Shown piece by piece: positions 7,010 to 61,386 of a stretch of 64,000 nucleotides of DNA; within the stretch, counting starts at the first letter, position 1, and every line of letters begins with the position of its first letter. A program made the translations under genes and the position numbers. The DNA is from Gordius sp. MW1. Its lineage: Eukaryota; Nematomorpha; Gordioida; Gordea; Gordiidae. The notes beneath the pieces were generated by a model. It saw only the letters and a list, made by a program, of their open reading frames with translations, was not told the DNA's origin and made no database searches. The DNA is taken from the NCBI GenBank assembly GCA_964036665.1, contig OZ038529.1, positions 18,608,060 through 18,672,059 of the forward strand. The letters run 5' to 3'.

Positions 7010-7460
7010 TAATTATAATCAAAAAGAAATCAATTTTAATCTAACTTTGGCCAATGGTCATTTTTTTCATTGGTCAGTAGCCAGCGGACGGTCAAAAAGT
7101 CATATTATCAATGGTATTAACAAGAACAATATATTAATTTAATTTAAAAAAAAAAAAAAAATTGTCCTCTCCGGGATTCGAACCCACATCAGTAGAGGCA
7201 TAGGCCCTTGTAGGGGAGGGCATAGGGTCGTTATCAATGTTAACCTAATATACCAATTCAAAAACGAATAAAAAAATTTGAATCACAATTTGGCCAATGG
7301 TCATTTTTTCATTGGTCAGAAGCAAGCGGACGGCCAAAAAGTCATATTATCAATAGTATTAACAAAAAAAAAATTTATTTAATTAAAAAAAAAATTTGTC
7401 CTCTCCGGGGATTGAACCGACAAGTCAGAAAGTTGAAAGCCGGTGTAAGAACGTTGGAGG
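7010..7460. repeat. Repeat array 1, left part (CCAATG/CATTGG hairpin plus T-arm box)
   Basis: Units of ~270 bp contain three fixed parts. First is ggccaatggtcattttttt followed by cattggtcag, a hairpin with stem CCAATG/CATTGG. Second is agcggacggtcaaaaagtc. Third, after an A-rich tract, is tcctctccgggattcgaacc. On the minus strand the last reads as a pol III B-box (GGTTCGAATCC) followed by T-runs. No complete tRNA fold was found. The array continues after element A at 9688. Confidence 0.7.
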
Positions 7461-9687
7461 TAGTGTTGTAAAAAACCCAGGTTTTAGATTGGTCGCCTGC
7501 AAGGGTTAGCGTTTTTTCCCACCAAACCCTTTCAGTGTTAGGTGAATTTTTTTGGTTCACCCTTGGTGTTTGGCGCTTTTTACACCCATACACCAAGAGT
7601 GTTTGGGTGAAATATTTTGGTTCACCCTTGGTGTATTGGCGCTTTTCACACCCATACACCAAGGGTGTTTGGGTAAAATTTTTTGGTTCACCCTTGGTGT
7701 ATTGGCGCTTTTCACACCCATACACCTTTAGTAACCTTTTGGTTTGGTTTTGGTCGTTTTGGGTTGTGTATGGAAATATGTGAAGTTTTTATAATTTTTG
7801 TATTTAATAGTTATTTATTTATGTAATGAACTTTTATTGATGGGAAATATGAAATGACGTCACTAAGCTAGTTAAGTTATAATCAACCTTGTTCCAATTG
7901 GTATGCGAATGCGATACATCTCTCATGCAGATCATTAAAGGTGTATTATGAAAATATTTTTTTTACCTGTCTAAGCTGAAACAGGTGACAAATGTCAAAA
8001 TCTTTAATATCTATTAAAAAAAAAAAAAAAATTTGATATTGGTTCATTATATGACTAAAACAAGTTTTAAACTCGAAAATAATATTTTTTCACCTGTTCA
8101 ATGTGAAACAGGTGACAGATTCCAAACTCTTTAATATCTATTGAAATGAATATTTTTTTTTGGAAATTGGTTCATTATATGACTAAAACAAGTTTTAAAT
8201 ATGAAAATAATATTTTTTTACCTGTTCAATGTGAAACAGGTGATAAATTCGAAAATCTTTAATATCTATTGAAATGAATATTTTTTTTTGGAAATTGGTT
8301 CATTATATGACTAAAACAAGTTTTAAACTCGAAAATAATATTTTTTCACCTGTTAAATGTGAAACAGGTGACAAATGTCAAAATCTTTAATATCTATTGA
8401 AATGAATATTTTTTTTGGAAATTGGTTCATTATATGACTAAAACAAGTTTTAAACTCGAAAATAATATTTTTTCACCTGTTAAATGTGAAACAGGTGACA
8501 AATTCCAAAATCATTAATATCTATTGAAATGAATATTTTTTTTTGGAAATAGGTTCATTATATGACTAAAACAAGTTTTAAACATGAAAATAATATTTTT
8601 TCACCTGTTCAATGTGAAATAGGTGACAGATTCCAAACTCTTTAATATCTATTGAAATGAATATTTTTTTTTGGAAATTGGTTTATTATATGACTAAAAC
8701 AAGTTTTAAACTCGAAAATAATATTTTTTCACTTGTTAAATGTGAAACAGGTGATAAATTCCAAAATCTTTAATATCTATTGAAATGGATATTTTTTTTT
8801 GGAAATTGGTTCATTATATGACTAAAACAAGTTTTAAACTCGAAAATAATATTTTTTCACCTGTTAAATGTGAAATAGGTGACAATCACCTGTTTCACAT
8901 TGAACAGGTAAAAAAATATTATTTTCATATTTAAAACTTGTTTTAGTCATATAATGAACCAATTTCCAAAAAAAAATATTCATTTCAATAGATATTAAAG
9001 AGTTTGGAATCTGTCACCTGTTTCACATTGAACAGGTGAAAAAATATTATTTTCATGTTTAAAACTTGTTTTAGTCATATAATGAACCTATTTCCAAAAA
9101 AAAATATTCATTTCAATAGATATTAAAGATTTTCGAATTTATTACCTGTTTCACATTTAACAGGTGAAAAAATATTTTCATAATACACCTTTAATGATCT
9201 GCATGAATGATGCATCGCATACCAACTGGAACAAATTATAGGTTGATTATAACTAGCAAATATGATACTTTCCACTTAGTGACGTCATTTCATATTTCCC
9301 ATCAATAAAAGTTCATTACAAAAATAAATAACTATTAAATACAAAAATTATAAAAACTTCACATATTTCCATACACAACCCAAAACGACCAAAACCAAAC
9401 CAAAAGGTTACTAAAGGTGTATGGGTGTGAAAAGCGCTAATACACCAAGGGTGAACCAAAAAAATTCACCCAAACACCCTTGGTGTATGGGTGTGAAAAG
9501 CGCCAATACACCAAGGGTGAACCAAAAAATTTCACCCAAACACTCTTGGTGTATGGGTGTAAAAAGCGCCAAACACCAAGGGTGAACCAAAAAAATTCAC
9601 CTAACACTGAAAGGGTTAGGCGTAATTTATACACCAATTACCAAGCTTGGCAACACGCTGGGAAAAACCAGCCACCCGTTTTCACTA
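7461..9687. mobile_element. Foldback element A (hAT-like, 2,227 bp)
   Basis: Left end tagtgttgtaaaa and right end ttttcacta are flanked by perfect 8-bp duplications gttggagg (7453-7460 and 9688-9695), the hAT hallmark. The arms are long inverted repeats. Left arm 7530-7800 carries repeated cacccttggtgta / tacaccaagggtg hairpins, a ccttttggtttggttttggt block, and TGACGTCA at about 7856. The right arm mirrors all of these. The interior is two opposed tandem arrays. There is no transposase, so it must be mobilised in trans. The frames at 7535-7783 and 9437-9782 are translations of the hairpin repeats. Confidence 0.85.
7930..9180. repeat. Asymmetric palindromic array of ~127-bp hairpin units
   Basis: Seven direct units begin near 8041, 8169, 8297, 8424, 8551, 8679 and 8808. 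Each carries the hairpin cacctgtt-aatgtg-aaacaggtg. At about 8885 the orientation flips, and two to three units follow in reverse (8948, 9075). The copy numbers of the two halves are unequal, so one half has expanded or contracted after the palindrome formed. Confidence 0.85.
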
Positions 9688-9695
9688 GTTGGAGG

Positions 9696-17417: not shown

Positions 17418-19544
17418 CGTTGGAGGACTGTGTGGATATTTAAATCGATCATCGCCGTCGTGTATATACAGTGAATCCAAGACAGACTGAGTTTTTCCAA
17501 CTGCGACTGTTGTTGGTTAATGGCACCGGCTCGTTGTCATTTCACGATATATGTAAAGTAAATGGACAACAGTATCTAGCGTATGAAGATGCCATGCCTT
17601 ACATTAGGTTTGCTAGAAGACGACAACCATCGGGACAGTATTCTTACTGAAGCAGCATTAAACTTCCAACAACACAAATTCGTCTACTATTCGCTTGACT
17701 ACGTGTTTCCAGGCCCGAGCACAAACGTTGTGGGAATATATTACATCGATATGGTTCAAGGTGCATTGATCTATCGAGATTATTCAGCGACGCAATGTAC
17801 AATGAAGCATTGATAGCTATTGAGGATCTTTGCATTGTCATTGCCAATTTAATTAGTCATTTTGGTATGAGTTCACCAAATCGAAGTGCATCTGATTTAC
17901 TCAATACTGGTATGAGGCTTGAACTGCAGTACAATACTGTAGAAATGACAGCAATTGTTACTCGCAATGTTCCACTGCTAACTGATGAGCTACGACCGCA
18001 TTATGCTGGCAATTTCGGCAGGACAAGGTGGTTTTTTTGGATGCTCCAGGTGGAACTGGCAAAACATTTCTCATTTCGATAATTTTTGCCGAGATACGAT
18101 CAAAAAATGGCATCGCATTGGCCGTTGCATCATCTGGCATTGCAGCAACTTTATTAGATGGAGGCATCTGCATTTAAGCTGCCACTAAATATCCAAAGTA
18201 ACCCAGAGGCAGTGTGCAACATAAAAAAACAATCGTCCATGGCCTCTGTACTCAAACCGTGTAAAGTTATAATCTGGGATGAATGTACTAAGGCACACAA
18301 ACATACCTTGAGGCATTGGACAGGACATTGAAGGATATAAAAAACAACGACAAAATATTTGGCGGCACTCTGTTACTCCTTTAAGGTAAATTCAGACAAA
18401 CACTTTCCGTCATTCCACGTTCAACGTACGCTGATGAGATCAACGCTTGCTTAAAATCATCGTCATTGTGGCGTAATGTTAAAAAGTTAGAACTGAAATT
18501 AAACATGCGCGTTCATATGCTTAAAGATCCATCCACTGAAACATTCTCAAAACAACTGTTAGATATTGGTGATGAAAAAGTTGATTTGTATGAAAATACT
18601 GGATGCATAAAATTACAGTCGGATTTTTGCACAATCGTCGATTCGCAAAATGCTCTCATCGACCACATATTTCCAGATATATATACACAGTACAAAAATC
18701 TTGCCTAGATGTCCGAAATAGCAACATTGTCAGCAAAAAATGTGCATGTCAAATTTAAAATCCAAGATACAACAGTTGTTGCCAGGTGACTTGGTGTCAT
18801 ACAAATCTGTCGATACAGTTTGCTAACGAAGCTATATATTATCCAATTGAGTTTTGGATTCATTGGATTTGTCAGGCATGCCACCACACCTTTTACAATT
18901 GAAGGTTGGATCTCCGGTAATTATGCTTCGTAATTTAAACCCACCATGGCTGTGGACTGGCAAACGATTAGTCATCACAAAATGTATGAAAACTGTTATC
19001 GAAGTCACCATTTTGAATGGCAAGTTCCGAGGTGAAAATGTATTGCTGCCACGAATCCCTATGATTCGCACAGATGTGCCGATTGAATTCAAACGTATTC
19101 AATTTCCAATTAGATTGGCATTCGCAATGACAATTAATAAGGCTCAAGGTCAAACGATGTCTATTTGTGGCTTAGATTTAGACACATCATGCTTTACCCA
19201 CGGACCGCTATATGTAGCATGTTCTCGCATGGGTAAACCATCCTGTTTGTTTGTGTTGGCTAAAGATGGACCCAAAAATATCGTATACTCCATCGCACTT
19301 AGAGAATGATAGTGAATTATTTTTTAATCGTCATAATTTGATATATATATATAGGTATCAAAAATGATTTAATAAAGTATATATAATGAAATTAATAAAT
19401 GTTTAGTGTATTGTCATTTTATAGGCCAACATTGTCCCAACGCTCTATTCTAATTTCGATCATAACCACATACCCATACATTTATAGTATTTTCTAGATG
19501 TAATATATATAGCAAAACAACGTTTGCCGGGTCAGCTAGTTATT
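17418..19544 (+). mobile_element. Helitron, 5'-truncated, with 3' end
   Basis: A decayed helicase frame (17430-19309) is followed by an AT-rich tail ending caaaacaacgtttgccgggt-cagctagt (19521-19544). A terminal CTAGT fits Helitron 3' ends. The last 24 bases are the reverse complement of the start of the non-autonomous copies at 41908, 53514 and 59616, tying them to this family. The Rep/HUH endonuclease portion is missing; the sequence switches abruptly to repeat array 2 at about 17417. Confidence 0.7.
17430..19309 (+). pseudogene. PIF1-like helicase domain of the Helitron, multiply frame-shifted
   Basis: Fragments in several frames, in order, follow the RepHel helicase. They are NPRQTEFFQLRLLLVN, GLLEDDNHRDSILTEAA (17583 onward), the Walker A DAPGGTGKTF (18040-18066), ASSGIAATLLDGG, and the C-terminal block 18854-19309. 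The last includes LSGMPPHLLQLKVGSPVIML, FAMTINKAQGQTMS and VACSRM, the known PIF1 helicase motifs V-VI. At least six frame changes or stops interrupt it; the 18180-18850 part is most decayed. It cannot encode an active enzyme. Confidence 0.85.
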
Positions 19545-22749: not shown

Positions 22750-23149
22750 TAGTGTTGTAAAAAACCAAGGGTTTCTATTGGTTGCCTGCAAGCGTTGGCG
22801 TTTTTTTTTCACCCAACCTTTTCAGCGTTAGGTGAATTTTCTTGGGAGGGCTTTGGCGTTTTCGTCAAAAACACCCAAAGCGTTTTGGGTGTTTTTTGGG
22901 GCACCTTTGGCGTTTAGGTTTGGGTGTATTAAACGGCTAAAGGGTTTGGGTGGATAATATTATTAACCTTTTGGTTTGGTTTTGGTCGTTTTGGGTTGGG
23001 CATGCAAATATATCAATTTGTTTATACTGTTCATCATATTTGTGTATTTAGATTTAGGTAATGAACTTTTAATTTAAGAAAATAAAAATAAATGTATTAG
23101 TAGGTAGTGAATTAATATGTTTTATTTATGAAAAAAAATTGGTGAAGAT

Positions 23150-23865
23150 TTGCCTCCCCCTTATTTTTTACCCTCTTTCTCACCTGGGGAGGAACGGCGG
23201 GCAGGTGGGGTGTTTGCCCCCCCCCCTAATTTTTTATCCGCGAGGGTGTAGGGGGCAGGGGGTGTTTTGCCCCCCCCCTTAATTTTTTACCCTCTTTCTG
23301 ATGCGGGGGAGGGGGCAGGGGGGTGTTTTGCCCCCCTCCCCCCTAAATTTTTACCCTCTTTCTGATGCGAGGGAGAGGGGGGTGTTTTGCCCCCCCCCCT
23401 TATATTTTACCCTCTTTCTGATGCGAGGGAGAGGGGGGCAGGGGGTGTTTTGCCCCCCTCCCCTAATTTTTTACCCTCTTTCTGATGTGGGGGAGAGGGG
23501 GGCATGGGGGGTGTTTTGCCCCCCCCCCAATTTTTTACCCTCTTTCTAATCAGAGGGAGAGGGGGGCATGGGGGGTGTTTTGCCCCCCCCCCCCCCAATT
23601 TTTTACCCTCTTTCTAATGCGGGGGAGAGGGGGGGCATGGGGGGGTGTTTTGCCCCCCCCCCCAATTGTTTACCCTCTTTCTGATGCGAGGGAGAAGGGG
23701 GGCAGGGGGTGTTTTGCCCCCCCCCCTAATTTTTTACCCTCTTTCTAATGCGGGGGAGTGGGGGGGGGGGGGGCATGGGGGTAGTTTTGCCCCCCCCCCC
23801 TAATTTTTTACCCTCTTTCTGATGCGGGGGAGAGGGGTGCAGGTGGGGTGTTTTCTATAAATAGA
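23150..23865. repeat. G-run/C-run 60-mer array, left arm of element B (~11 units)
   Basis: Unit: tttttaccctctttctgatg, a G-rich part (gggggagaggggggcatggg), then tgttttg and 8-14 C's. Run lengths vary between units. Every unit has several G-runs of five or more on the plus strand and a C-run, so quadruplex potential exists on both strands. Frames such as 23301-23549 (rich in FCPPP) are repeat translations. Confidence 0.9.
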
Positions 23866-25150
23866 TAACGAATATAAAGTGAGATTTATCTGGCCATTCG
23901 AGAGCAGATTTTGAATTCAATCCTTCAATTATAAATTAATATTTTAATTCATTCTAAATTAATGACAGCTAACAGATCCCCCTCTAAATATTCCCGGCAA
24001 TAGCAATTTTAATCACAAAATTTAATTTTAAATATATTTTGAATTCCTCGCCTCTTGTAAAAGATAAAGACTTATTAATTATATAATGTCCCTTTTATTT
24101 TATATTTAAACTATATTTTCAATATTAGAGAATGGCATCCCGCCCGACTCGACATATCACCACTCCCATGTAGCATGTACATGTTCATGTACTAATCCAC
24201 CCTCTCTCTCCCTTCTCTCGTTGCAATGCATGCGCAATACCAGATTTAAACCTATCAGATTTAAGTTAAGTACTAAACTAAATATATAAAAAAAATCATG
24301 GCACAACGGCATGGTGTGGCGTGGGCTGGCTAGGCTCTTTATTACATCATTTTACATTCATTTCTTTTTAAACGTACAACATATCAAGGTATGTAGAAGT
24401 TGCGAATCATATTATTATAAATAAAATAAATGAAAATTAAACTTTTTTTTATTATGTCAACTACTAATTAAGTCATAAGCAATTAGAAAATTAAGTTTCT
24501 TATTAAATAATAAGCAATAATTTGAATTAAGATGCTTAACTCATTTTTGTTACTCAGAAAAGTCCGATATTTTTATGATCCTTATAAGCCTTTGTAAACG
24601 CGAGGTCTAAGTCAACAGGACGTAGAGTGTTGGTGCCTTGTGAAAGCATAGTAATTAATAGCATGATATGCTTTTTGGAAATACCTTAAGTTTTTCCATT
24701 AAATGCCCAGATAACTTAAAAGTAAAACTTACTTACCCATGATGGCAAATTTTTTTAAATTGGTAAAATTTCATATTAATATTATAATTAATAATACAGC
24801 TTATTTCTTAAATGAAGTTAAATTAAAAAAATTTATTTTAATTGATGAGGTATATTAAGACAATTGTTGACCGCAAATCTTCAAAAATATATTTTCGAAT
24901 ATTAGAAGATCTATGTCATATAATAAGTCAATTTTCAAAAAAAATATAAATTAATAGAAAATGTTGATTAGGACATTTGTCACCGCTGTGACCGCAAATC
25001 TTTCCAAATTTTTTTTTTCTAATAGTAAAACATCTTTCAGTCATAATAAGTCTATTTTCAAAAAAAATTAATTTCAATAGAAAATGTTGATTATGACATT
25101 TGTCACCACTGAGACCGCAAAAATTCACAAAAGTATTTTGAAAGGGTTAA
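23866..25150. other. Unique core of element B plus three ~122-bp direct repeats
   Basis: Starts with tctggccattcgagagcag (about 23890). It is nearly identical to the core of element C (56166-57480), which marks both as one family. From about 24850, three direct units of the type aaaatgttgattatgacatt followed by tgtcaccactgtgaccg occur, comparable in position to the 127-bp units of element A. No open frame of note. Confidence 0.75.
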
Positions 25151-25159
25151 AAAAGGCTT

Positions 25160-25335
25160 TCCGCCCCCCCCCCCGGGTGAGAAAGAGGGTAAAAAATAAA
25201 AAGAGGGGTCCTTTACCCCCCTCTCCCCCGCATCAGAAAGAGAGTAAAAAATTAGGGAGGGGGGCAAACACCCCACCTGTCCGCCGTTCCTCCCCAGGTG
25301 AGAAAGAGGGTAAAAAATAAGGGGGGGGGCAAATC
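25160..25335. repeat. G-run/C-run array, right arm of element B (~3 units)
   Basis: Inverse orientation to the left array: gagaaagagggtaaaaaata, G-runs, then C-runs. Only about three units remain, against ~26 in the same place of element C. Confidence 0.85.
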
Positions 25336-25870
25336 TTCACAAATTTTTTTCATAAATAAAACATATTAATTCACTACCTACTTCTATAATGTATATCAAT
25401 TAACTTTACTTCCATAATGTATAATAATTAACTATAATTTACTAGAGATTAGATAATAATACTTTTCATTATGACGTCACAACGGGAAAAGTTTTAACTC
25501 AGTGACGTCATGATACATTTATTTTTATTTTCTTAAATTAAAAGTTCATTACCTAAATCTAAATACACAAATATGATGAACAATATAAACAAATTGATAT
25601 ATTTGCATGCCCCACCCAAAACGACCAAAAGCAAACCAAAAGGTTAATAATATTATCCACCCAAACCCTTTAGGTGTTTTATACACCCAAACCTAAACGC
25701 CAAAGGTGCCCCAAAAATTCACCCAAAACGCTTTGGGTGTTTTTTACGAAAGCGCCAAACGCCAAAGCCCTCCGAAGAAAATTCACCTAACACTGTAAAG
25801 GTTGGGTGAAAATAAACGCCAACAACTAAGCTTAGCAATACGCTGGGAAAAACCAGCCAGCCGTTTTTAC

Positions 25871-26543
25871 ATTGAAATTCAACTCAATGAAAAGTTTTAG
25901 ACAAAAAGAAATTATTGCAAATATTCAATTTTGGTTTCCTCAAGATTCGAAAGTTTCGCCTGCAACTCAGATAAAAATAAATCACATAGCGGATTTTCAC
26001 CTTAATGACTTGAATGATACAAGTGTTGACGTTAAAACAGACTTAATATTTGGTATATGTCGTTGTCTCAGATGCCTGAAGAATTGCGTCCCAAGAATGC
26101 CTTGAACACTTTGCTAAATCACAAAACAAAATTGGATTGCTTGTCTAACCTTACAACTTTATTTATTAGCTTGTCTCTCCATTACTACATGCACAAATGA
26201 GAGAGATTTCTCAACTTTGCTTGATATTTGGTATATGTCGTTGTCTCAGATGCCTGAAGAATTGCGTCCCAAGAATGCCTTGAACACTTTGCTAAATCAC
26301 AAAACAAAATTAGATTGCTTGTCTAACCTTACAACTTTATTTATTAGCTTGTCTCTCCATTACTACATGCACAAATGAGAGAGATTTCTCAACTTTGAGA
26401 AAAGACCTACCCACGGAATTTCCTGTCAAATAATCGATTAAATGGTTTGACGCCTTTAAGGATTAATCGAGAGTTAGCTCCAACTCCTGATAAAATTTTT
26501 GATATCTTATATTTTGTCAAAAGAAATTTGTTACAATCCTGAA
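25871..26543 (+). pseudogene. Remnant of a ZMYM/52-kDa-repressor-like hAT transposase
   Basis: The plus-strand pieces KEIIANIQFWFPQDSKVSP and then HLNDLNDTSVDVKTDL are homologous to the copy at 31754-33150. An internal 178-bp tandem duplication (units at 26046 and 26224) covers the LSQMPEELR region and the following exon end. The frame is broken several times. It ends at 26543 with the same C-terminus-like residues (ILYFVKRNLLQS). It joins foldback element B directly on the left and a MITE on the right. Confidence 0.7.
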
Positions 26544-34740: not shown

Positions 34741-36395
34741 GTTAATTAGTTATAGGCCCTTGTAGGAGAGGCCATGGGGTAATTATCAGTGTTAACCAAT
34801 TCAAAAACGAAAAACAAATTTCGATTCACATTTTGGCCAATGGTCATTTTTTTCATTGGTCAGTAGGCAGCGGACGACTAAAAAACCATATTATCAATGG
34901 TATTAACAAGAACAAAATATTAATTTAATTAAAAAAAATAAAACTTTGCCCTCTCCGGGATTCGAACCCACATTAGTAAAGGCATAGGCTTTTGTAGGGG
35001 CACAGGGACCCATATCAGTACAGGCATAGGCCCTGGTAGTGGAGGGCATAGGGTAATTATCAATGTTAACCAATTCAAAAACGAAAAAAAAAAATTTCGA
35101 TATATACTTTGGCCAATGGTCATTTTTTTCATTGATCAGTAGCCTGCGGACGGTCAAAAAGTCATATTAACAATGTTATGAACAAGAACAAAATATTAAT
35201 TTAATTTAAAAAAAAAATAAAAATTTTGCCCTCGCAGGGATACGAACACACATTAGCAAAGGCATAGGCTTTTGTAGGGGCACAGGAACCCATATCAGTA
35301 GAGGCATAGGCCCTTCTACGGAAGGGCATAGGGTAATTATCAATGTTAACCAATTCAAAAACGGGAAAAAAAATTTCGATTTATACTTTGGCCAATGGTC
35401 ATTTTTTTCCTTTGGTCAGCAGCCAGGACACGTTAGTCGATATAAATACATAAGAGTCAAAAAAAATGAAAAAATAATTTCGATTCACATTTTGGCCAAT
35501 CGTCATTTTTTCCATTGGTCAGTACCAAGAGACGGTATATAAATACATAGGAGTCAAAAAAACGAGAAAAAAAAATTTTGATTAACATTTTGGCCAATGG
35601 TCATTTTTTTCCATTGGTCAGCAGCCAAGACGGCCAAAAAGCCATATTATCAATGGTATTAACAAGAACAATCATAAGAGTCAAAAAAACGAAAAAAAAA
35701 ATTTCGATTCACATTTTGGCCAATGGTCATTTCATTCCATTGGTCAGCAGCCAACGACGGCCAAAAAGTCTTATTATCAATGGTATTAACAAGAACATTA
35801 TATTAATTTAAACAAAAAAAATAAAAAAAAATTTGGCCTCTCGGGATTCGAACCCACATCATTAGAGGCATAAGCCTTTGTAGGGCCACAGGGACCCGTA
35901 TCAGTATAGGCATAGGCCCTTGTAGGAGAGGCCATGGGGTAATTATCAATGTTAACCAATTCAAAAACGAAAAACAAATTTCGATTCACATTTTGGCCAA
36001 TGGTCATTTTTTCATTGGTCAGTAGCCAGCGGACGACCAAAAAGCCATATTATCAATGGTATTAACATGAACAATATATTAATTTAATTTAAAAAATAAA
36101 TAAAAAATTTTGCCCTCTCCGGGATTCGAACCCACATCAGTAGAGGCATAGGCCTTAGTAGGGGCACAGGGACCCATATCAGTAGAGGCATAGGCCCTTG
36201 TAGTAAAGGGTATAGGGTAATTATTAATGTTAACTTAATATACCCTTCAAAAACGAAAAAAAAATTTTTTGATTTATTTGGCCAATGGTCATTTTTTCAT
36301 TGGTCAGTAGCCAGCGGACGGTCAAAAGTCATATTATCATTTATCAATGGTATTAACAAGAACAAAATATTAATTTAATTTAACTAGGTCACAAA
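34741..36395. repeat. Repeat array 3 (hairpin plus T-arm units)
   Basis: At least seven units carry the ggccaatggtcatttttttc..cattggtcag hairpin (34838, 35110, 35388, 35494, 35590, 35718, 35995, 36277). Four retain the reverse T-arm box (ctctccgggattcgaaccc and variants). Some units are shortened to the hairpin alone. The many 60-85-codon frames here are repeat translations. Confidence 0.8.
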
Positions 36396-36540
36396 GCTGG
36401 CGCTAATAACTTAAAGGGTAACGGACGGATGGACAACGGACGGACGGACGGACAACAAAAAACGAGCCCTTAAAAGTCGGGTAGTATAAGCAAAATGAAT
36501 CAAATTAAAAACTAACAAATATTATTATCAAAATGTTATA
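36396..36540. repeat. (GGAC)n-rich linker with AATTGCATAGCAATT-type ends
   Basis: Contains ggacggacggacaac and aacgagcccttaaaa. The fuller version at 38630-38710 reads cgagcccataaattgcatagcaat, in which aattgc-ata-gcaatt forms a small hairpin. Confidence 0.6.
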
Positions 36541-36730
36541 AGACTCGGGCCTTCGGCCCTCGTGGGAAGGGGGAGGGGGGAAGGGAAGGGGGGAAGGGAA
36601 GAGGGGAAGGGAAGGGGGGACGACTCATCTTTACTTCGTATAAATGTATCATATTTGCTATGCAATTTATGGGCGAGAAAGGTGGGAAGGGGCGAGAATG
36701 CCTATAGGGGGGGGGGTATTAAATGCCTAA
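36541..36730. repeat. Purine-rich GGGCCTTCGGCCC module, copy 3
   Basis: Same order of words as 34558-34740, with a longer G-run (ggggggggg at about 36707-36715). Confidence 0.75.
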
Positions 36731-36949
36731 TGATTAATTAATTATTTATACAAATTTTCCATTTATAGGCAAAATGTAATATAGGCAAGGGTTAGGGTTA
36801 GATTTATTGTTTGCATATAGTTGCGTATTACATTAGTTTTTACGGCCTTTAGTCATTATGGGTCTAACAAACATTATATTATAAAACATCACAATGTTAA
36901 GAATTTGCAGAATTGTTGGGAGAAATTTTTGTTGAATTTGAACAATTTT

Positions 36950-38480
36950 TAATTAAAAAAATCAAAAATTTGGCGAATGGTCATTTTTTCTCCATTGGTC
37001 AGTACCAACAGATACTCTATAAGTCAAGGATAGCCAAAAAAACGGGAAAAAAAATTTGATGCTAACTTTGGCCAATGGTCATTTTTTTCCATTGGTCAGC
37101 AGCCAGCACACGGTAAAAATGGATATAAATTCATAAGAGTAAAAAAAACGAAAAAAAATGTTCGAATCACATTTTGGCCAATGGTCCTTTTTCCCCATTG
37201 GTCAGCAGCCAGGACACGGTAAAAGTGGATATAAATTCATCATAGTCAAAAAAAACGAAAAAAAAATTTTCGAATCACATTTTGGCCAATATTTTATTCC
37301 ATTGGTCAGCAGCCAGCGGGCGGCCAAAAAGTCATAATAGCAATGGTAGGAACAGGAACAATCATAATAGTCAAAAAAAACGAAAAAAATAATTTCGATT
37401 CACATTTTGGCCAATGGTCATTTTTTCCATCGGTCAGGAGCCAGCGGACGGCCAAAAAGTCATAATAGCAATGGTAGTAACAGGAACAATCATAATAGTC
37501 AAAAAAAACGAAAAAATAAATCGGATTTACATTTTGGCCAATGGTCATTTTTTTCATTGGTCAGCAGCCAGCGGACGGCCAAAAAGTCTTATTATCAATG
37601 ATAGTAAAAAGAACAATCATGAGTCCCAAAAACTCCGGGATTCTAACCCAAAAACTAGTTAAATTGCATAGCAATTAAAAGTAAACAACTTTTACTTATG
37701 TTTATTATATAATAAAATGAAACAATAATAGAACTAGCGGACGGCCAAAAAGTCATAATAGCAATGGTAGGAACAGGAACAATCATAATAGTCAAAAAAA
37801 CGAAAAAAATAATTTCGATTCACATTTTGGCCAATGGTCATTTTTCCATCGGTCAGGAGCCAGCGGACGGCCAAAAAGTCATAATAGCAATGGTAGTAAC
37901 AGGAACAATCATAATAGTCAAAAAAAACGAAAAAATAAACTCGGATTCACATTTTGGCCAATGGTCATTTTTTTCATTGGTCAGCAGCCAGCGGACGGCC
38001 AAAAAGTCTTATTATCAATGATAGTAAAAAGAACAATCATAAGAGTCCAAAAAATTCCGGGATTCTAACCTAAAAACTAGTTAAATTGCATAGCAATTAA
38101 AAGTAAACAACTTTTATTTATGTTTATTATATAATAAAATGAAACAATAATAGAACAAGCGGACGGCCAAAAAGTCATATTATCAATGGTAGTAACAGGA
38201 AAAATATATTAATTTAATTTAAAAAATAAAATATAAATTTGCCCTCTCCGGGAATCGAACCAGCATTTCAGAACGTTCGCCGTTGTTCGAACCCACTTCA
38301 ATAGAGGCATAGGCTTTTTTTAAGGGGCACAGGGACCCATATCAGTAGAGGCATAGGCCCTTGTAGTGGAGGGCATAGGGTAATTATAGCAATTAATATC
38401 AATGTTACCCAATTCAAAAACGAATAGATATACTTATACATTAATTTAACATAGCAATTAAAACCCGACCCCGCCCGAAA
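36950..38480. repeat. Repeat array 4 with a 422-bp tandem duplication
   Basis: Hairpin units near 36970, 37070, 37175, 37290, 37407, 37537, 37830 and 37958 mostly lack the T-arm part. The block around 37314-37735 is repeated at 37736-38157 (for example ctagttaaattgcatagcaa at 37655 and 38077, 422 bp apart). A T-arm box variant (tctccgggaatcgaacc) is at about 38244. Confidence 0.8.
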
Positions 38481-49318: not shown

Positions 49319-50236
49319 ATGAAAATTGGAACAATACCACCATTAAGGGATATTGGAACAATACAACCAAAAATGGATATTGGAACAATACCACCATATA
49401 AGGTAGGAGATAATATCTCTACTTATATATTAACTATTACAAATATATTTGAGGCCAAAAATGTTACCAAGGACATCAGAAAGAAGATAATACTTGGGTA
49501 TATGGGACAACACAATGTGGAATCCATAATAAACTTTGCTTATCCTAATGATATTACATCTTTGGATTATGAGGAATTAATCAAATTGATGAAGAAGGTA
49601 TTGGCTCATATAATTACTCTTTTTCATTCTAGGATCCCTTTTTATGAGATCATAAGGAGACCTGATGAAACTCTTACAGAATATGTGTCAACATTAAAAT
49701 CTGCTTCAGAAAATTGCAACTTCAAAACAAATCTGGACGAGAGACTGCGCGATCAAATTTTGTGTGGCCTTCAAAATTTATCATTAGAAATTCAATTTGG
49801 AACTCAATGGCCTGAAGGTGTAAATAATGCTGGTGATGTTATATCTTTTAATGATATATATAATTTAGCAGAATCTATGGAAATAGCTAATAGGGAATCA
49901 TCACAAGAGATAAACAAAATACAAAAGTACATACCAAATTCTAAATACACAGATAAAAGGGTTACAAACAAACAAAATTTCATAAGCAAGTGTTCTAGGT
50001 GTGGTAAGTCACATCCAAGCAATAGATGTGATGCTTATAACAAGGTGTGCTATAAATGTAACAAAAAGAATAATTATGCTAAATATTGTAAAAGTTCAAA
50101 GGAGGTAAATCATATTGTCAATTCTATTGGAATATTTTATGATGTTAACAATATTACCCCAAACCTTATATCAATATTGTCATCAACAATAAAACTGTTA
50201 AAATGTTATTTGACACAGGATCTTGTGTCACCCTAA
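49319..50236 (+). CDS. Gag of the LTR element
   Basis: The 305-codon intact frame opens 10 bp into the primer-site region. The N-terminus has three copies of an eight-residue I-G-T-I-x-P-P motif, encoded by a small minisatellite. The middle (about residues 60-200, with TLFHSRIPFYEIIRRPDETL and LRDQILCGLQN) fits the retrotransposon gag capsid domain. The C-terminal zinc knuckles are CSRCGKSHPSNRC (CX2CX3HX4C) and CYKCNKKNNYAKYC, the second lacking its histidine. Gag packages the element RNA. It overlaps the protease frame, which lies in -1. Confidence 0.8.
   Translation: MKIGTIPPLRDIGTIQPKMDIGTIPPYKVGDNISTYILTITNIFEAKNVTKDIRKKIILGYMGQHNVESIINFAYPNDITSLDYEELIKLMKKVLAHIITLFHSRIPFYEIIRRPDETLTEYVSTLKSASENCNFKTNLDERLRDQILCGLQNLSLEIQFGTQWPEGVNNAGDVISFNDIYNLAESMEIANRESSQEINKIQKYIPNSKYTDKRVTNKQNFISKCSRCGKSHPSNRCDAYNKVCYKCNKKNNYAKYCKSSKEVNHIVNSIGIFYDVNNITPNLISILSSTIKLLKCYLTQDLVSP
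50158..50164 (+). promoter_or_regulatory. Probable -1 frameshift heptamer between gag and pol
   Basis: The sequence c-cca-aac falls exactly in the gag codon register (codons at 50156, 50159, 50162) as X-XXY-YYZ. A -1 slip there enters the frame that leads without stops to the protease DTG at about 50215. No downstream pseudoknot was modelled. Confidence 0.5.
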
Positions 50237-50634
50237 TAAATAAGAAGATATATAACATTATTAATAAACCACAATTATATACCTGCCAAAAGATAAAGGC
50301 TTTTGGAAACAACCCTGTGTCAATTTCTGGTCAAGTTGAAGTTTGTGTAAAATTCAATAACATGACATTGAAACTACCAGCTATCGTTACAAATGAGGAA
50401 GAGGAACCAATATTTGGATTAAATTGTATGCAGGCATTTAATTTGAAACTCCCTATTCAAGTTACAATATATTCGATTAATTATCAACCTGAAAATGCCT
50501 TGATTGAGAAATATGGGGAGATATTTAATGACAGCATGGGTTGTATAAAGAATTATGAGGTAAGTATTTTTTTTGAAGGAAGAAGCAAAGTCAATAGCTT
50601 GTCCTGCGCGGAGAGTTCCTTTCCCGCTGCGTAA
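50165..50634 (+). pseudogene. Protease and start of pol
   Basis: In -1 relative to gag, the frame contains MLFDTGSCVTLI, the aspartic protease active site, and later AFGNNPVSISGQVEVCVKF and PIFGLNCMQAF, both standard for retrotransposon proteases. It stays open to 50634, but the continuation toward reverse transcriptase switches frame near 50570, so a shift mutation separates protease from RT. Confidence 0.7.
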
Positions 50635-51065
50635 GAAAGTAGAAGAGGGTCTAAAAAAATTGTTAAATGAAGATGTTATTGAAGAGGTAGACCCATCAGT
50701 TACAGCAATCCAATGGGTAACGCCTATAGTAAATGTAGTTAAGTCAAATGGCTCAATTCGGAAACGATAAATTCTCACTTAACTTTATAAATTATTTGCT
50801 ACCAACTTTTGTAGCCTTAATTATGAAGATTGTAGGCGGCCAAAAGTATACAGTCATGGATTTGCGGGATGCATACTTACAGATGAAGGTCGAGAGAGAA
50901 TCAAGACATTACCTCACAATAGCAACTCATATGGGTTATTATAGATATAAAAGACTACCATTCGGATTATCAATAGCTCCGAATTTATTTCAGCGGTACA
51001 TGGAAAATCTATTGGGTGGCATACCTCACGTGGATGTTTTATTAGACGATACGATATCATCGTAA
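50573..51065 (+). pseudogene. Reverse transcriptase, frame-shifted
   Basis: RARRVPFPLR..LLNEDVIEEV (50573-50770) is the RT entry region. After a frame change at about 50765, VMDLRDAYLQMKVERESRHY and RLPFGLSIAPNLFQRYME follow (RT motifs A and B). The catalytic L-D-D of motif C is present, but a direct 5-bp duplication (acgat at 51046-51050 and 51051-51055) shifts the frame within it, ending the frame at 51065. The enzyme cannot be made from this copy. Confidence 0.75.
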
Positions 51066-51918
51066 CTGGAGCAACAGAACAGGAACATATTAAAAATTTA
51101 AATGAGGTAGTACAAAGAATCCACCAGGCTGGGATAAAAGTAAGAAAGGAGAAGGTGAAATTCTTTCAAACATCAGTAACTTACTTGGGCCATAAAATTG
51201 ACGCTTCAGGGATCCATCCAACCGAAGAAAGAGTAGAAGCGATAAAAAATTTCAAAATTCCTGCGAACAAGAAGGAACTCCGTTCTTTCTTAGGATTGGT
51301 AAACTACCAACAAAAATTTATCCCGCAGCTACATGAAAAGTGCACACTACTACATGCTATCACCGGTTCCCTGGTTCAATGGCGTTGGACGAATAAAGAA
51401 CAAAAGATATTTGACGAGGTGAAAAGTCTTTTATCAGTTACAGATACACTAGTGCCATATTCGTTGGACTTGCCATTAGTCTTATCCGTAGACGCATCTG
51501 ATTCGGGGTTAGGAGCCATACTAACACATGTATTTCCCGATGGTACGGAAAAACCTATAGCCTAGCTTCACGCACGTTGAGCGAATCCGAAAAGCGTTAC
51601 TCAACGATTGATCGGGAAGCTAGAGCAATCGTCTATGGTGTCGAAAAATTTAATCAATATTTACGTGGACGGAAATTCACGTTAATGACGGATCATAAGC
51701 CCTTAGAGCGATTGTTTGGAAATAATCACGATTTACCTAAAGTGGTCAATAACAGATTAGTTCGATGGGCATTATTTTTAAATACGTATCAATATGAAAT
51801 TAGATACAGATCGGGTAAATCAAACCAATGCGCAGATGCTTTATCAAGACTCCCAAAACCTACAAATAATGACACCAAACACATAAATAACATAAACCAT
51901 TTATGTTGGATGATTTGA
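51066..51918 (+). pseudogene. RT thumb and RNase H
   Basis: ELRSFLGLVNYQQKFIPQLH (51155-51565) is the RT connection. LSVDASDSGLGAIL carries the first RNase H aspartate. A stop at 51563 separates it from SEKRYSTIDREARAIVYGVE, LMTDHKPLERLFG and GKSNQCADALSRLP (51577-51918), which complete the RNase H domain with E and both later aspartates. One frame change divides an otherwise well-kept domain. Confidence 0.75.
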
Positions 51919-54083: not shown

Positions 54084-54724
54084 GTTGTATATGGAACTGC
54101 TTAATAACTCAAATATTATACAACCTGTACACTATTGTTAAGAATTCAACATTGATATTTTATTTTTATTCACAAAAGTTCACAATTATTTAAGGAATTA
54201 ACATGCAATATGTCCACAAAAAGTAAATTAGTTTTAAAACACTATCCTTATAGTATAATAAATCTAAGACCCGGTCCCCTTTGAATCCGGCACATTTGCC
54301 AACTGCTCACTGCAAGCGTTTTTTCACCCAACCTTTTCAGTGTTAGGTGAATTTTCTTGGGAGGGCTTTGGCGTTTGGCGTTTTCGTAAAAAACACCCAA
54401 AGCGTTTTGGGTGTTTTTTTTGGGGCACCTTTGGCGTTTAGGTTTGGGTGTATTAAACAGCTAAAGGGTTTGGGTGGATAATATTATTAACCTTTTGGTT
54501 TGGTTTTGGTCTTTGGGTTGGGCATGGCAAATATATCAATTTGTTTATATTGTTCATCATATTTGTGTATTTAGATTTAGGTAATGAACTTTTAATTTAA
54601 GAAAATAAAAATAAATGTATCATGACGTCACAATCTAGTAAATTCAGTAAATTATAGTTAATTATTATGCATTATAGAAGTAGGTAGTGAACAATATGTT
54701 TTATTTATGAAAAAAAATTTGTGA

Positions 54725-56165
54725 AGATTTGCCCCCCCCCCCTTTATTTTTTACCCTCTTTTTCACCTGGGGAAGAACGGCGGGCAGGTGGGGTGTTTGC
54801 CCTCCCCCTGATTTTTTACCCTCTTTCTCACCCGGGGGGGGGGGGCAGGGGGGTGTTTTGCCCCCCCCCCTAATTTTTTACCCTCTTCTGATGCGGGGGA
54901 GAGGGGGGGGGTTCCCTCCCCCCTAAATTTTTACCCTCTTTCGGATGCGAGGGAGAGGGGGGTGTTTTGCCCCCCCCTTATTTTTTACCCTCTTTCTGAT
55001 GAGAGGGAGAGGGGGCCTAATTTTTTATCCTGTTTCTAATGCGGGGGAGAGGGGGGCATGGGGGGTGTTTTGCCCCCCCCCCCAATTTTTTACCCTCTTT
55101 CTGATGTGAGGGAGAGGGGGGGCAAAGGGGGTGTTTTGCCCCCCCCCTAATTTTTTACCCTCTTTCTGATCCGGGGGAGAGGCGGGGCATGGGGGGTGTT
55201 TTGCCCCCCCCCCCAATTTTTTACCCTCTTTCTGATGCGAGGGAGAGGGGGGGGCAGGGGGTGTTTTGCCCCCCCCCCCCTAATTTTTTATCCTCTTTCT
55301 AATGTGGGGGAGAGGGGGGAGGCATAGGGGGTGTTTTGCCTCTGCCCTAATTTTTTACCCTCGTTCTGATCAGGGGGAGAGGGGGGGGGCATGGGGGGTG
55401 TTTTGCCCCCCCCCCTTATTTTATACCCTCTTTCTAATGTGGGGGACAGGGGGGGCATAGGGGGTGTCTTGCCTCCCCCCCCCCCAATTTTTTACCCTCT
55501 TTCTAATGCGGGGGAGAGGGGGGGCATAGGGGTTGTTTGGCGCCGCCCTTCCCCCCTAATTTTTTACCCTCTTTCTGATCAGGGGGAGAGGGGGGGGGGC
55601 AAAACACCCCCCATGCCCCCCCCCCTTATTTTTTACCCTCTTTCTGATGTGGGGGAGAGGGGGGGGGCATAGGAGGTGTTTTGCCCCCCCCCCCTAATTT
55701 TTTACCCTCTTTCTGATCAGGGGGAGAGGGGGGCGGCATGGGGTGTGTTTTGCCCCCCCCCCCAGTTTTTTACCCTCTTTCTAATGCGGGGAGAGGGAGG
55801 GCATAGGGGGTGTTTTGCGCCCCCCCCCTTAACTTTTTATCCTCTTTCTGATCAGGGGGAGAGGGGGGGGGGCATGGGGGGTGATTTGCCCCCCCCCCCT
55901 TATTTTTTACCCTCTTTCTGATGTGGGGGAGAGGGGGGGCATAGTAGGTGTTTTGCCCCCCCCCCCCGCTTAATTTTTTACCCTCTTTCTGATCAGGGGG
56001 AGAGGGGGGCGGCACGGGGGGTGTTTTGCCCCCCCCCCCCCCACCCTTATTTTTTACCCTCTTTCTAATGTGGGGGAGAGGGGAGCATGGGGGTAGTTTT
56101 GCCCCCCCCCCCCTAATTTTTTACCCTCTTGCTGATGCGGGGGAGAGGGGTGCAGGTGGGGTGTT
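54725..56165. repeat. G-run/C-run 60-mer array, left arm of element C (~23 units)
   Basis: Units of about 61 bp built as in element B: taccctctttctgatgcggg, gagagggggg, catggggggtgttttg, then C-runs. G and C run lengths vary from 4 to 14. Around 55590 one unit carries gggcaaaacaccccccatgc, a local inversion within the array. All long Pro/Gly-rich frames here are repeat translations. Confidence 0.9.
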
Positions 56166-57480
56166 TTCAATAAATAGAAAACGATTATAAAGTGAGACTT
56201 ATCTGGCCATTCGAGAGCAGATTTGAATTCAATTCTTCAATTAAAAATTATTATTTTAATTCATTCTAAACTAATGACAGCTAACAGATCCCCCTCTAAA
56301 TATTCCCGGTAATAGCAATTTTAATCACAAAATTTAATTTCAAATATATTTTGAATTCCTCGCCTCTTGTAAAAGATAAAGACTTATTAATTATATAATG
56401 TCCCTTTTATTTTATATTTAAACTATATTTTCAATATCAGAGAACGGCATCCTGCGCGACTCGACATATCACCACTCCCATGTAGCATGTACATATTCAT
56501 GTACTAATCCACCCTCTCTCTTCCTTCTCTCGTTGCAGTGCATGCGCAAACCCAGATTTAAACCTATCAGATTTAAGTTAAGTACTAAACTAAATATATA
56601 AAAAAATCATGGCACAACAAGGCATGGTGTGGCGTGGGCTGGCTAGGCTCTTTATTACATCATTTTACATTCATTTCTTTTTTAACGTACAACATATCAA
56701 GGTATGTAGAAGTTGCGAATCATATTATTATAAATAAAAAAAATGAAAATTAAACTTTTTTTTTATTATGTCAACTACTAATTAAGTCATAAGCAATTAG
56801 AAAATTAAGTTTCTTATTAAATAATAAGCAATAATTTAAATTAAGATGCTTAACTCATTTTTGTTACTCAGAAAAGTCCGATATTTTTTATGATCCTTAT
56901 ATGCCTTTGTAATCGCGAGGTCTAAGTCAACAGGACGTAGAGTGTTGGTGCCTTGTGAAAGCATAGTAATTAATAGCATTATATGCTTTTTGGAAATACC
57001 TTAAGTTTTTCCATTAAATGCCCAGATAACTTATATAGTAAAACTTACTTACCCATGATGGCAAATTTTTTTAATTTGGCAAAATTTCATATTAATATTA
57101 TAATTAATAATACAGCTTATTTCTTATATGAAGTTAAATTAAAAAAAATTTATTTTAATTGATATGGTATATTAAGACAATTGTTGACCGCAAATCTTCA
57201 AAAATATATTTTCGAATATTAGAAAATCTTTGTCATATAATAAGTCAATTTTCAAAAAAAAATATAAATTTCAATAGAAAATGTTGACTAAGACATTTGT
57301 CACCACTGTGACCGCAAATCTTCCCAAAAATATTTTTTATAGTAGTAGAACATCTTTCAGTCATATAATAATCTATTTTCAAAAAAAAATATTAATTTCA
57401 ATAGAAAATGTTGATTATGACATTTGTCACCACTGTGACCTCAAAAATTCACAAAAATATTTTGAAAGGGTTAAAAAGGG
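56166..57480. other. Unique core of element C
   Basis: Nearly identical to 23866-25150 of element B, including accactcccatgtagcatgt and the three ~122-bp repeats ending at about 57450. No transposase motif or sizeable reading frame. Confidence 0.75.
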
Positions 57481-57484
57481 CTTT

Positions 57485-59098
57485 TTGGCGCCCCCCCCCC
57501 CGGGTGAGAAAGAGAGTAAAAATTAAGAAGAGGGGCGATTCACCCCCCCCCCCCTCTCCCCGACATCAGAAAGAGGGTAAAAAATAAGGGGGGGGGGGCA
57601 AAACACCCCCATGCCCCCCCCCCTTCCCGGGTGAGAAAGAGGGTAAAAAATAAGGGGGGGGGGGCAAAACACCCCTATGCTTCCCTCCCCGGGTGAGAAA
57701 GAGGGTAAAAATTAGGGGGGGGGGGTGGGGCAAAACACCCCCCTGCCACCCCCCTCTTGCTCGAATCAGAAAGAGGGTAAAAAATTAGGGGGGGGGGGAG
57801 CAAAACACTCCCTGCCCCCCCCCTCTCCCTCGCATCAGAAAGAGGGTAAAAAATTAGGGGGGGGGCAAAAAACCCCTAATGCCCCCCTCTCCCCCACTTA
57901 AGAAAGAGGGTAAAAAATAAGGGGGGGGGCAAAACACCCCCCTGCCACCCCCTCTCCCTTGCATCAAAAGAGGGTAAAAAATTGGGGGGGGGGGGCAAAA
58001 AACCCCCTGCCCTCTCTCCCCCGCATCAGAAAGAGGTTAAAAAATTAGAAGGGGGGCAAAACACCCCCCCCCCCCATGCCCCCCTCTCCCCCACACCAGA
58101 AAGAGGGTAAAAAACTAGGGGGGGGGGGCAAAACACCCCCCTCTCCCTCGCATCAGAAAGAGGGTAAAAAATTGGGGGGGGGGGGCAAAACATTCCCTAT
58201 GCCCCCCCCCTCTCCCCCGCATCAGAAAGAGGGTAAAAAATTAGGGGGGGGGCAAAACACCCCCCTGCCACCCCCCTCTCCCTCGCATCAGAAAGAGGAA
58301 AAAAAATTAGGGGGGAGGGGGGCAAAACACCCCCCTGCCCCCCTCTCCCCCCGCATCTGGAAAGAGGGTAAAAAATTAGGGGGGAGGGGGGCAAAAAACC
58401 CCCTGCCCCCCTCTCCCCCGCATCCGAAAGAGGGTAAAAAATTAGGGGGGGGGGCGACAAAACACCCCCCATGCCCCCCTCTCCTCCGCATTAAAAAGAG
58501 GGTAAAAAATTAGGGGGGGGGGGGGTGAAAAACACCCCCCATGCCCCCCTCTCCCTTGCATTAAAAATTAGGGGGGGGGGCAAAACACCCCCTATGCCTC
58601 CCCCCCCACCTCTCCCCCACATCAGAAAGAGGGTAAAAAATTGGGGGGGGGGCAAAACACCCCCCATGCCCCCTTCTCCCCCGCATTAGAAAGAGGATAA
58701 AAAATTAGGGTGAGGGGCAAAACACCCCCTGCCCCCCCTCTCCCTCGCATCAGAAAGAGGATAAAAGATTAGGGGGGGCAAAACACCCCCTGCCCCCCCC
58801 CTCTCCCTCGCATCAGAAAGAGGGTAAAAAATAGGGGGGGGGCAAAACACCCCCCTCTACCTCGCATCAGAAAGAGGGTAAAAATTTAGGGGGGAGGGGG
58901 GCAAAACACCCCCCTGCCCCCCCCCCCTCTCCCCCGCATCAGAAAGAGGGTAAAAAATTAGGGGGGGGGGCAGCCTGCCCCCCCCCCCCGGGTGAGAAAG
59001 AGGGAAAAAAATAAGAGGGGGGGGGGGCAAACACCCCACCTGCCCGCCGTTCTTCCCCAGGTGAGAAAGAGGGTAAAAAATAAGGGGGGGGGGCAAAT
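57485..59098. repeat. G-run/C-run array, right arm of element C (~26 units)
   Basis: Opposite orientation to the left array: gcatcagaaagagggtaaaa, then G-runs, caaaacacccc, and C-runs. About 26 units in 1.6 kb, against about three in element B. Confidence 0.9.
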
Positions 59099-59615
59099 CT
59101 TCACAAATTTTTTTTTAATAAATAAAACATATTGATTCACTACCTACTTCTATAATGCATAATAATTAACTATAATTTACTGAATTTACTAGATTGTGAC
59201 GTCATGATACATTTATTTTTATTTTCTTAAATTAAAAGTTCATTACCTAAATCTAAATACACAAATATGATGAACAATATAAACAAATTGATATATTTGC
59301 ATGCCCAACCCAAAACGACCAAAACCAAACCAAAAGGTTAAAAATATTATCCACCCAAACCCTTTAGCTGTTTAATACACCCAAATCTAAACGCCAAAGG
59401 TGCCCCAAAAAAACACCCAAAACGCTTTGGGTGTTTTTTACGAAAACGCCAAACGCCAAAGCCCTCCCAAGAAAATTCACCTAACACTGGGAAAGGTTGG
59501 ATGAAAAAAACGCCAACAACTAAGCTAAGCAATACTCTGGGAAAAACCAGCCAGCCGTTTTTACAACACTAATATATACACACACACAGACATTGTTTCA
59601 TTTTTAGGACTAGAT

Positions 59616-60331: not shown

Positions 60332-61386
60332 CAGTGTTGTAAAGAATGGGTTTTAGACCTATCATGTTCCAGCGGCGGAATAATGAACACGATTTAAAAT
60401 AAAAAGGTTTGAAGGAGAGGGAATCAGGAATATATTGGGAGAATTAAGGAGGATAGGGGAAATATAGCGGGAAGACGGCAGGTCAGAAATATATGCCTCC
60501 CCAAAGAGAGACTTACTTTTATTTCTATACGCTACATCTTTTTTTATGGTAAATTCTAACTACATAATAAAATAATTAATTGCGTATCTATGAATAGTCT
60601 TTCGATACAATGCAAAATTCACTGATGCGTGTTGACCGGTGGCTCGTTAACTTGCCGAAAACCATCTCGCCGAATTCACCTGGGACGATTTGTGATTACT
60701 TGAATGGGGGACGATTTTAAATTAGGGGACCTTCTTAACAGGGGGACATTAAATTCGGCCAGATTGGTTGATAGGGCACCGTGTTGATCAATAGTTATAT
60801 ATATATATGGGGAATATATAACAAACACGTACAAGCGGGTGGGGGGGGGAAAGGGGTAAAGTAACACACACGTACTGGAAATTAAATGGAAAGGAAAAGA
60901 CGTGTTTACTCCAGTATACAGTCAAAACCGTTCAATTGCAAAGCCTTGGGCCGGAAAAACATTCGCGATTAACCGATATTTCGCGATTAAACGATGGAAA
61001 TAAAAGTATATGTACATTATATTAAATATTCATTACTTACGCTTCGCAATAAAACGATATTTTATATAATTATCTGGTTGATTTAAGGACTGAAAATGTT
61101 TGTGAACATCCGATATTGTACTATTAAGCGATTTGTCAATAAACGATGTTTTTGTTACTATTATCGTTTAAAAAAAACAAAATGGCGGTTAACTTTGCGA
61201 ATGATTTTCGCGATCATCCGATTTGCGATTAAGAAGTTTTGACTGTACCACAAGACCAAAGGTTTTTTTGTGTTTTTAGTGGCATAAACAGACCAAAGAT
61301 TTTTTGGTCAAACAATCGGTCTATTTATATTTAGTCGATTAAAACAAAGGTCGATCAAACAAAACCCAGACGTTTTTACAACACTA
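60332..61386. mobile_element. hAT-like MITE D, 1,055 bp, carrying a nested MITE
   Basis: Ends cagtgttgtaaa / tttttacaacacta, like elements A-C, with perfect 8-bp duplications gtgaacac (60324-60331, 61387-61394). Unlike A-C it has no hairpin arms. A pogo-like MITE is nested inside. Interior non-coding. Confidence 0.85.
60919..61245. mobile_element. 327-bp pogo/Tc1-like MITE nested in MITE D
   Basis: Inverted ends cagtcaaaacc / agttttgactg are bounded by TA on each side (60917-60918, 61246-61247), the Tc1/mariner-superfamily target. The interior has repeated cgcgattaaccgat / gcgattaaacgat words. Confidence 0.8.

Follow-up and report, generated by a model that had tools for sequence, protein, structure and literature searches.

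In this study, we show that element A, which spans positions 54310-59571 of a 64,000-nucleotide stretch of the Gordius sp. MW1 genome (contig OZ038529.1, C3:18608060-18672059, hereafter the window; the source assembly, GCA_964036665.1, comprises 211.8 Mb in 12 contigs), consists of opposed arrays of repeated units around a 1.3-kb core (1315 bp), and that related copies are found elsewhere in the same genome. We interpret these copies as a young, non-autonomous cut-and-paste family that combines hAT-type ends with a foldback body, and we assign this reading, including its proposed mechanism of a hAT transposase acting in trans and pairing between the arms, a probability of about 0.82. From outside inward, A comprises a ~420-bp flanking domain, then the ~67-bp units in an array, then the core, after which the same parts follow in mirror order. 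An earlier note on this DNA had described a core of about 1.3 kb between opposed arrays and arms able to pair with each other, and both descriptions hold, the outer domains of A being 97.2% identical in inverted orientation. That note had also counted about 23 units on the left and 26 on the right and taken them for 60-mers; the repeat arrays are real, but our recount, made with an anchor sequence and two mismatches permitted, gave 22 and 24 units, and the median unit spacing is 67 bp (interquartile range 65-70; 625 spacings in the 15 two-ended copies introduced below). Runs of five or more bases number 44 G-runs and 21 C-runs in the left array of A, and 26 G-runs and 46 C-runs in the right one. 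The right end of A, at 59571, coincides exactly with the end of the terminal inverted repeat (TIR), and at the left terminus, near 54310, the initial 36 bp, among them the TIR, are missing. The A core contains no open frame as long as 90 amino acids.

The suggestion of the earlier note that this is a family and not an accident is borne out by searches of the genome, in which reversed-letter versions of the motifs served as controls for chance. The A core as query returned at least 43 match rows (40 of 874 candidates scored) with 90-100% identity, mostly 93-97%. A 33-base core motif occurs exactly 67 times (control, 0), a 24-base unit motif 1306 times (control, 0), the R-end 37-mer 210 times (control, 0), and the 14-base TIR 4691 times in the 211.8 Mb (control, 31). 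Beyond A and a second window element, B, we fetched 20 further copies with their flanks, 15 of which have both ends, the other five being without one end in the stretch read. The two-ended copies measure 3857-6746 bp and carry 5 to 43 units per arm. Miniature inverted-repeat transposable elements (MITEs) are smaller than about 0.8 kb, and this label, used in the earlier note, is ruled out by size. The hAT-type ends postulated there were found: the 14-bp TIR TAGTGTTGTAAAAA is present at both ends of all 15 copies, followed by side-specific sequence, and 13 of the 15 are bordered by perfect 8-bp target-site duplications (TSDs), in which A occupies position 7 in every one of the 13 and T occupies position 2 in 10. 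Moreover, when the two flanks of copy L029 are joined, they align with an uninterrupted stretch beside copy L021 (98.8% over 246 bp across the junction); the joined flanks of L012 likewise align with contiguous sequence in L022 (81% over 299 bp across the junction); for the remaining 13 of the 15 copies, no cross-junction match was seen among the fetched sequences. The 8-bp duplications and the two element-free stretches therefore indicate specific transposition.

The long inverted arms with tandem repeats and the variable middle (1.3 kb, about 110 bp, or none) place the family among the foldback elements. In the five short-interior copies that were fetched, the interior of about 110 bp corresponds to the last core repeat in four, and in L049 the arms abut. 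The body plan comprises, in this order, a short TIR, about 40-60 bp of end-specific sequence, a nearly identical inverted flanking domain of about 400 bp, the ~67-bp G/C-run units in their long array and finally a core, which may be 1.3 kb long, reduced to about 0.1 kb or absent. A hAT transposase would act in trans on the short common ends, slippage or unequal exchange would alter the number of units, and pairing between the arms would homogenize their outer parts and could have inverted the core.

Outer arm domains can be exchanged between left and right, as shown by a comparison of 18 left and 18 right arms over 396 flanking-domain columns, with inverted-core copies set aside. No column differs by more than 0.39 in major-allele frequency between left and right, and one differs by more than 0.3; the outermost ~60 bases keep left or right specificity. 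Mean identity of the flanking domains is 98.2% within a copy (17 copies), and between copies it is 97.6% for left-left, 97.5% for right-right and 97.5% for left-right pairs. With near-identical sisters dropped, minor alleles common to both arms of one copy number 18 in 13 representative copies, where permutation gives 9.6 on average and reaches such a value in 17 of 2000 runs, and the fraction of identical collapsed units is 0.109 within a copy versus 0.056 for left-right comparisons between copies (5 of 5000 permutations as high; 14 representatives). The core, too, can change orientation, being inverted relative to the ends in L019 and L025. Among 31 cores on contigs C1 to C5 (to 8.98 Mb; 100 of 210 R-end places listed), 22 are in normal and 2 in inverted orientation, and 7 have no R-end in reach, including element A, whose R-end has a variant base; the 2 inverted ones are additional to L019 and L025. 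Together with L019 and L025, the latter two make four inverted-core copies, which form one group (support 81/78), with one change in 80% of bootstrap trees. As these copies cluster, the simplest reading is that the core inverted once and that the inverted form later spread to four chromosomes, and there is moderate support for such a single origin.

The window holds a second member of the family and a more distant relative (Table 1). Element B (22750-25871) has the same core and arms, as the earlier note had recognized, with 10 units on the left and 3 on the right by the same anchor. Its right end halts at ...TTTTTACA (25871), 6 bp short of the full TIR, and neither window copy has two intact ends, because A lost its left terminus and B part of its right TIR. 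Element C is bordered by the duplication GTTGGAGG at 7453-7460 and 9688-9695, and its outer domains are related to those of the A/B family (73-82% in matched parts); a 488-bp end of C has two further 100%-identical copies in the genome. The arm unit of C is AT-rich, unlike the G/C-run unit of the A/B family, and the ~127-bp repeat of the A core is 69-78% similar to it. The common end type and the differing arm units indicate, therefore, that two families amplified different units. It is possible that C-like arrays preceded the G/C-run arrays.

Table 1. Positions of elements A, B and C and of their parts within the window
Feature	Position	Strand	Remark
Element C, related foldback	7461..9687	+	same end type; arms of 128-bp units
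B left TIR	22750..22763	+	
B left array	23150..23850	+	10 units
B core	23853..25156	+	95.1% identical to A core
B short right array	25160..25330	-	3 units
B right flanking domain	25331..25871	-	final 6 bp of TIR missing
A left outer flanking domain	54310..54729	+	begins CTGCAAGCG, TIR missing; 97.2% identical, inverted, to 59090-59509
A left array	54730..56165	+	22 units of ~67 bp; canonical G-quadruplex motifs mostly on top strand
A core	56166..57480	+	right part with 2.2 copies of ~127-bp repeat
A right array	57485..59100	-	24 units, opposite orientation; canonical G-quadruplex motifs mostly on bottom strand
A right outer flanking domain	59101..59557	-	
A right TIR	59558..59571	-	TAGTGTTGTAAAAA on minus strand

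Domains of the hAT dimerization type are abundant in the genome, with at least 150 places among 3413 candidates. We read 15 of the 150 places listed (L031-L038 with 1.5-kb flanks, and L039-L044 with seven domain places; L045 and L046 are two upstream extensions). A TIR-like site near L035 (~2643) was set aside; the copy homology of that group stops at ~2035, before the site, which therefore looks like a separate insertion. Near L039 there are two facing TIR-like sites 85 bp apart with unequal 8-bp flanks, and a link to the hAT domain is possible. Copy L047 (C1:14632640-14639470) was considered as an autonomous element and rejected: in its 6.8-kb interior the core is split by retroelement-like repeats, with long repeats of ~585 bp and a partial core duplication, so that the interior consists of other repeats, and no transposase was recognized by eye, no family search having been run on it.

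The earlier note had proposed that either strand of the arrays can form G-quadruplexes (G4). Canonical motifs (G3+N1-7) were counted against a background of 100 dinucleotide shuffles, and they favor one strand per arm. There are 8 on the top strand of the A left arm (shuffle mean 3.6, maximum 8), 9 on the bottom strand of the A right arm (mean 4.2, maximum 8) and 2 on the top strand of the B left arm (mean 1.6, maximum 4). The motif-poorer strands of the A arms fall below the shuffle mean (1 versus 2.6 and 1 versus 3.1), the motif-poorer strand of the B left arm has 0 versus 1.6, and in neither A nor B does one arm exceed its dinucleotide shuffles on both strands. With the base runs taken into account, canonical motifs are thus modestly in excess in A and not in excess in B. 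In the left arm, the top strand holds more canonical motifs than the bottom strand in all 22 copies; in the right arm, the bottom strand leads in 21 of 22, the exception being B with 0/0. These counts are approximate for copies without a detected end, where flank is included in the arm. The claim for both strands does find qualified support in G4Hunter, which at 1.5 or more scores 25% of windows on the top and 17% on the bottom strand of the A left arm, and 23% on the bottom and 17% on the top strand of the right arm, because long C-runs are G-runs on the opposite strand. In folding models, the C-run of each unit is able to pair with the unit's own G-runs. With G4 enabled in ViennaRNA, a quadruplex is chosen under RNA parameters in 1 of 4 three-unit stretches, the hairpin winning in the other three and in the single unit; under DNA parameters some G4 appears in all four stretches, and the strands with fewer canonical motifs gain more from it. 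These settings are rough, and the G4 energies had the same value in both modes. G4 formation by the array units is therefore possible on these models. The unit hairpin was rejected as a special structure, its z-scores in four units being -0.37 to -1.45 against dinucleotide shuffles.

The earlier note had allowed that the arrays might be assembly artifacts, and opposed G/C arrays could in principle arise by mis-assembly or from polymerase trouble in G/C runs. Further genomic copies with G/C arrays were found, among them three sister pairs (L021/L022, L018/L026 and L027/L028) that have unrelated flanks and array spacing alike almost unit by unit. The members of these pairs differ, in the same order, by 0, 1 and 1 core substitutions and by 18, 4 and 7 arm substitutions, and most of their differences are run-length indels, since 37/40, 30/31 and 39/41 indels lie within homopolymer runs at least five bases long, almost always of G or C. 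This pattern is also typical of sequencing error, and either the G/C runs change length quickly by slippage or their sequencing is poor, so recorded lengths may be inaccurate. However, array maps common to different loci with distinct TSDs and flanks argue that the arrays are not assembly artifacts and that the elements moved together with their arrays. Among the first 100 unit places listed, all 15 two-strand clusters read + then -, and five clusters have one strand only, the last of them being truncated where the listed matches end. For the architecture, an artifact is thus largely refuted, and we hold it to be extremely improbable. The superfamily is a separate question. The TIRs of hAT elements begin with YARNG and those of the P superfamily with CANRG, and Ac-type hAT elements prefer nTnnnnAn targets. 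The termini of the present family, TAGTG, are presumably a fit to hAT and not to P. The 8-bp TSD, the short TIR and the nTnnnnAn-type target pattern (T2 10/13, A7 13/13) agree with hAT, for which the sections consulted give an 8-bp TSD and a TIR of 10-25 bp (PMC3942097). A Galileo-like foldback of the P superfamily would share the foldback body, the tandem repeats and a palindromic TA-containing duplication, and Galileo TSDs are of 7 or 8 bp in the parts of the reports consulted; we nevertheless regard this assignment as decidedly unlikely, in view of the length of 8 in all 13 perfect cases and of the TAGTG termini. Several observations weigh against our interpretation. In its pattern, the TSD is also similar to the GTA.TAC-like sites of 7 bp given for Galileo in those parts, and the superfamily call therefore depends on the TIR letters and the 8-bp length. 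L024 and L027 (2 of 15) are without a perfect TSD, the TSD of element C has T2 but G7 and not A7, and no transposase gene with TAGTGTTGTAAAAA-type ends was found near the 15 hAT-domain places read. With regard to arm exchange, same-side unit sharing between copies is also high (left-left 0.086, right-right 0.102), and own-arm sharing is 0.04 or less in 6 of 14 copies; from the same-side sharing it follows that the arrays, unlike the outer domains, retain some side identity.

It is also possible to see in the arrays a function in transposition or propagation, in that G4 or hairpins would stall replication, or the units would provide extra transposase sites, with selection for longer arrays. Such a role would accord with the presence of at least five units in both arms of 19 of the 20 fetched copies, with the strand polarity of the canonical motifs, which in each arm are more numerous on the strand that reads 5'->3' toward the middle of the element, and with the tandem repeats of Galileo, which hold extra transposase binding sites according to the sections consulted (PMC3688188). 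We consider it unlikely, however, as unit number varies widely (5 to 43 per arm), a different, AT-rich unit goes with the same end type in family C, and modeled single-strand folding shows no clear preference for G4. Moreover, similarity between the unit and the flanking domain is not significant (250 of 300 run-preserving shuffles as high; one copy's domain); the unit is not detectably derived from that domain, and an array of transposase sites therefore lacks support. A more specific proposal, which we judge very unlikely, is that the arrays act in cis to raise copy number, in that stalling and hairpins would promote template switching between the arms. As the G4-richer strand runs inward in both arms, any fork would meet leading-template G-runs in one arm and lagging-template G-runs in the other. 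If such a device were real, arrays would expand, arms would homogenize, the core would invert and re-replication of the element would be favored. Within the reading of a young hAT-ended foldback family, repeat dynamics most likely produced the G/C runs as a side effect.

The earlier note knew of no comparable architecture, but foldbacks with tandem repeats in long TIRs are known (Tetris, Galileo, FB and rice elements). FB of Drosophila melanogaster has short units that are not known to contain G/C runs, and it is not known to be hAT-ended. It is like the present family, in the parts of the reports consulted, in its very long TIRs with tandem repeats, and it rearranges often (PMC2775673, PMC3688188). 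The closest described design, from the sections consulted, is Tetris of Drosophila virilis, likewise a non-autonomous foldback in which the TIR is a flanking domain plus tandem repeats and the middle is variable (PMC4079207). Tetris shares its ends with the short element DAIBAM, and its array size differs between alleles (PMC4079207, same sections). The present genome also has far shorter elements with the same 14-bp TIR: the first 100 TIR places listed, in C1 at 0-3.0 Mb, include seven inward-facing pairs with a spacing of about 140-205 bp, which resemble short MITEs sharing this TIR. Unlike our family, Tetris has a unit of about 220 bp, three structurally complete copies only and a TSD of 8-10 bp, and was put in Mutator by its authors; its repeat has 37 bp in common with the flanking domain, and we found no comparable similarity in our family; G/C runs are unmentioned in the sections consulted (PMC4079207). 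For Tetris, the repeat has been proposed to derive from the flanking domain; such an origin was rejected for our family, no significant similarity having been seen with the one copy's domain. Galileo (P superfamily) resembles the present family in its long TIRs, inside which some copies carry tandem repeats, and in inversions yielded by inter-copy recombination; it differs in having a known transposase, which binds the tandem repeats, a TSD of 7 or 8 bp, and units of about 140 bp in the single Drosophila willistoni copy having them, as far as the consulted sections describe it (PMC4168063, PMC2775673, PMC3688188). Foldbacks of rice have short tandem repeats (under 90 bp) inside their TIRs and, unlike ours, are from a plant, in the part of the review consulted (PMC10794571). 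The overall design is thus already known from Tetris and Galileo. The combination of hAT-type ends with G/C-run repeats appears to be new: no hAT-ended foldback with G/C-run arrays was found described among the matches listed in the open-access literature searched, and the only match joining a foldback element and a G-quadruplex concerns wheat VRN1.

Other features of the window were also noted. A 1055-bp element at 60332-61386 has hAT-like ends CAGTGTTGTAAA / TAGTGTTGTAAAAACG and an 8-bp duplication GTGAACAC. At 34752-38054 there are several tandem-repeat blocks of 100-280 bp with TTTTGGCCAATGGTCATTTTTTCCATTGGTCAGCAGCC-like units. Pfam searches of ten window open reading frames gave three retroelement pieces, one Pif1 piece and six without match. 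The retroelement pieces (protease, reverse transcriptase and RNase H) belong to a broken gypsy-like element at 50149-51918, and the Pif1 helicase 2B domain piece, at 18851-19306, is possibly of Helitron origin. A 516-amino-acid open frame without Pfam match (14370-15920) starts within a tandem repeat at 13442-14531 that has three copies of 362 bp (99% matches). No RNA families or tRNAs were found in the window at the thresholds used.

If the arrays are inert by-products, these elements simply represent a well-documented foldback family with hAT-type ends. With near-identical copies at different sites and countable units, they offer a young natural series on how foldback arms grow and stay alike, one that includes interchangeable outer arms, the inverted-core group and the sister family C with another amplified repeat. 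Furthermore, as the polarity of the G-run arrays is known and they occur at many sites, they may serve as a test bed for whether such tracts change in length faster than the rest of a transposon.

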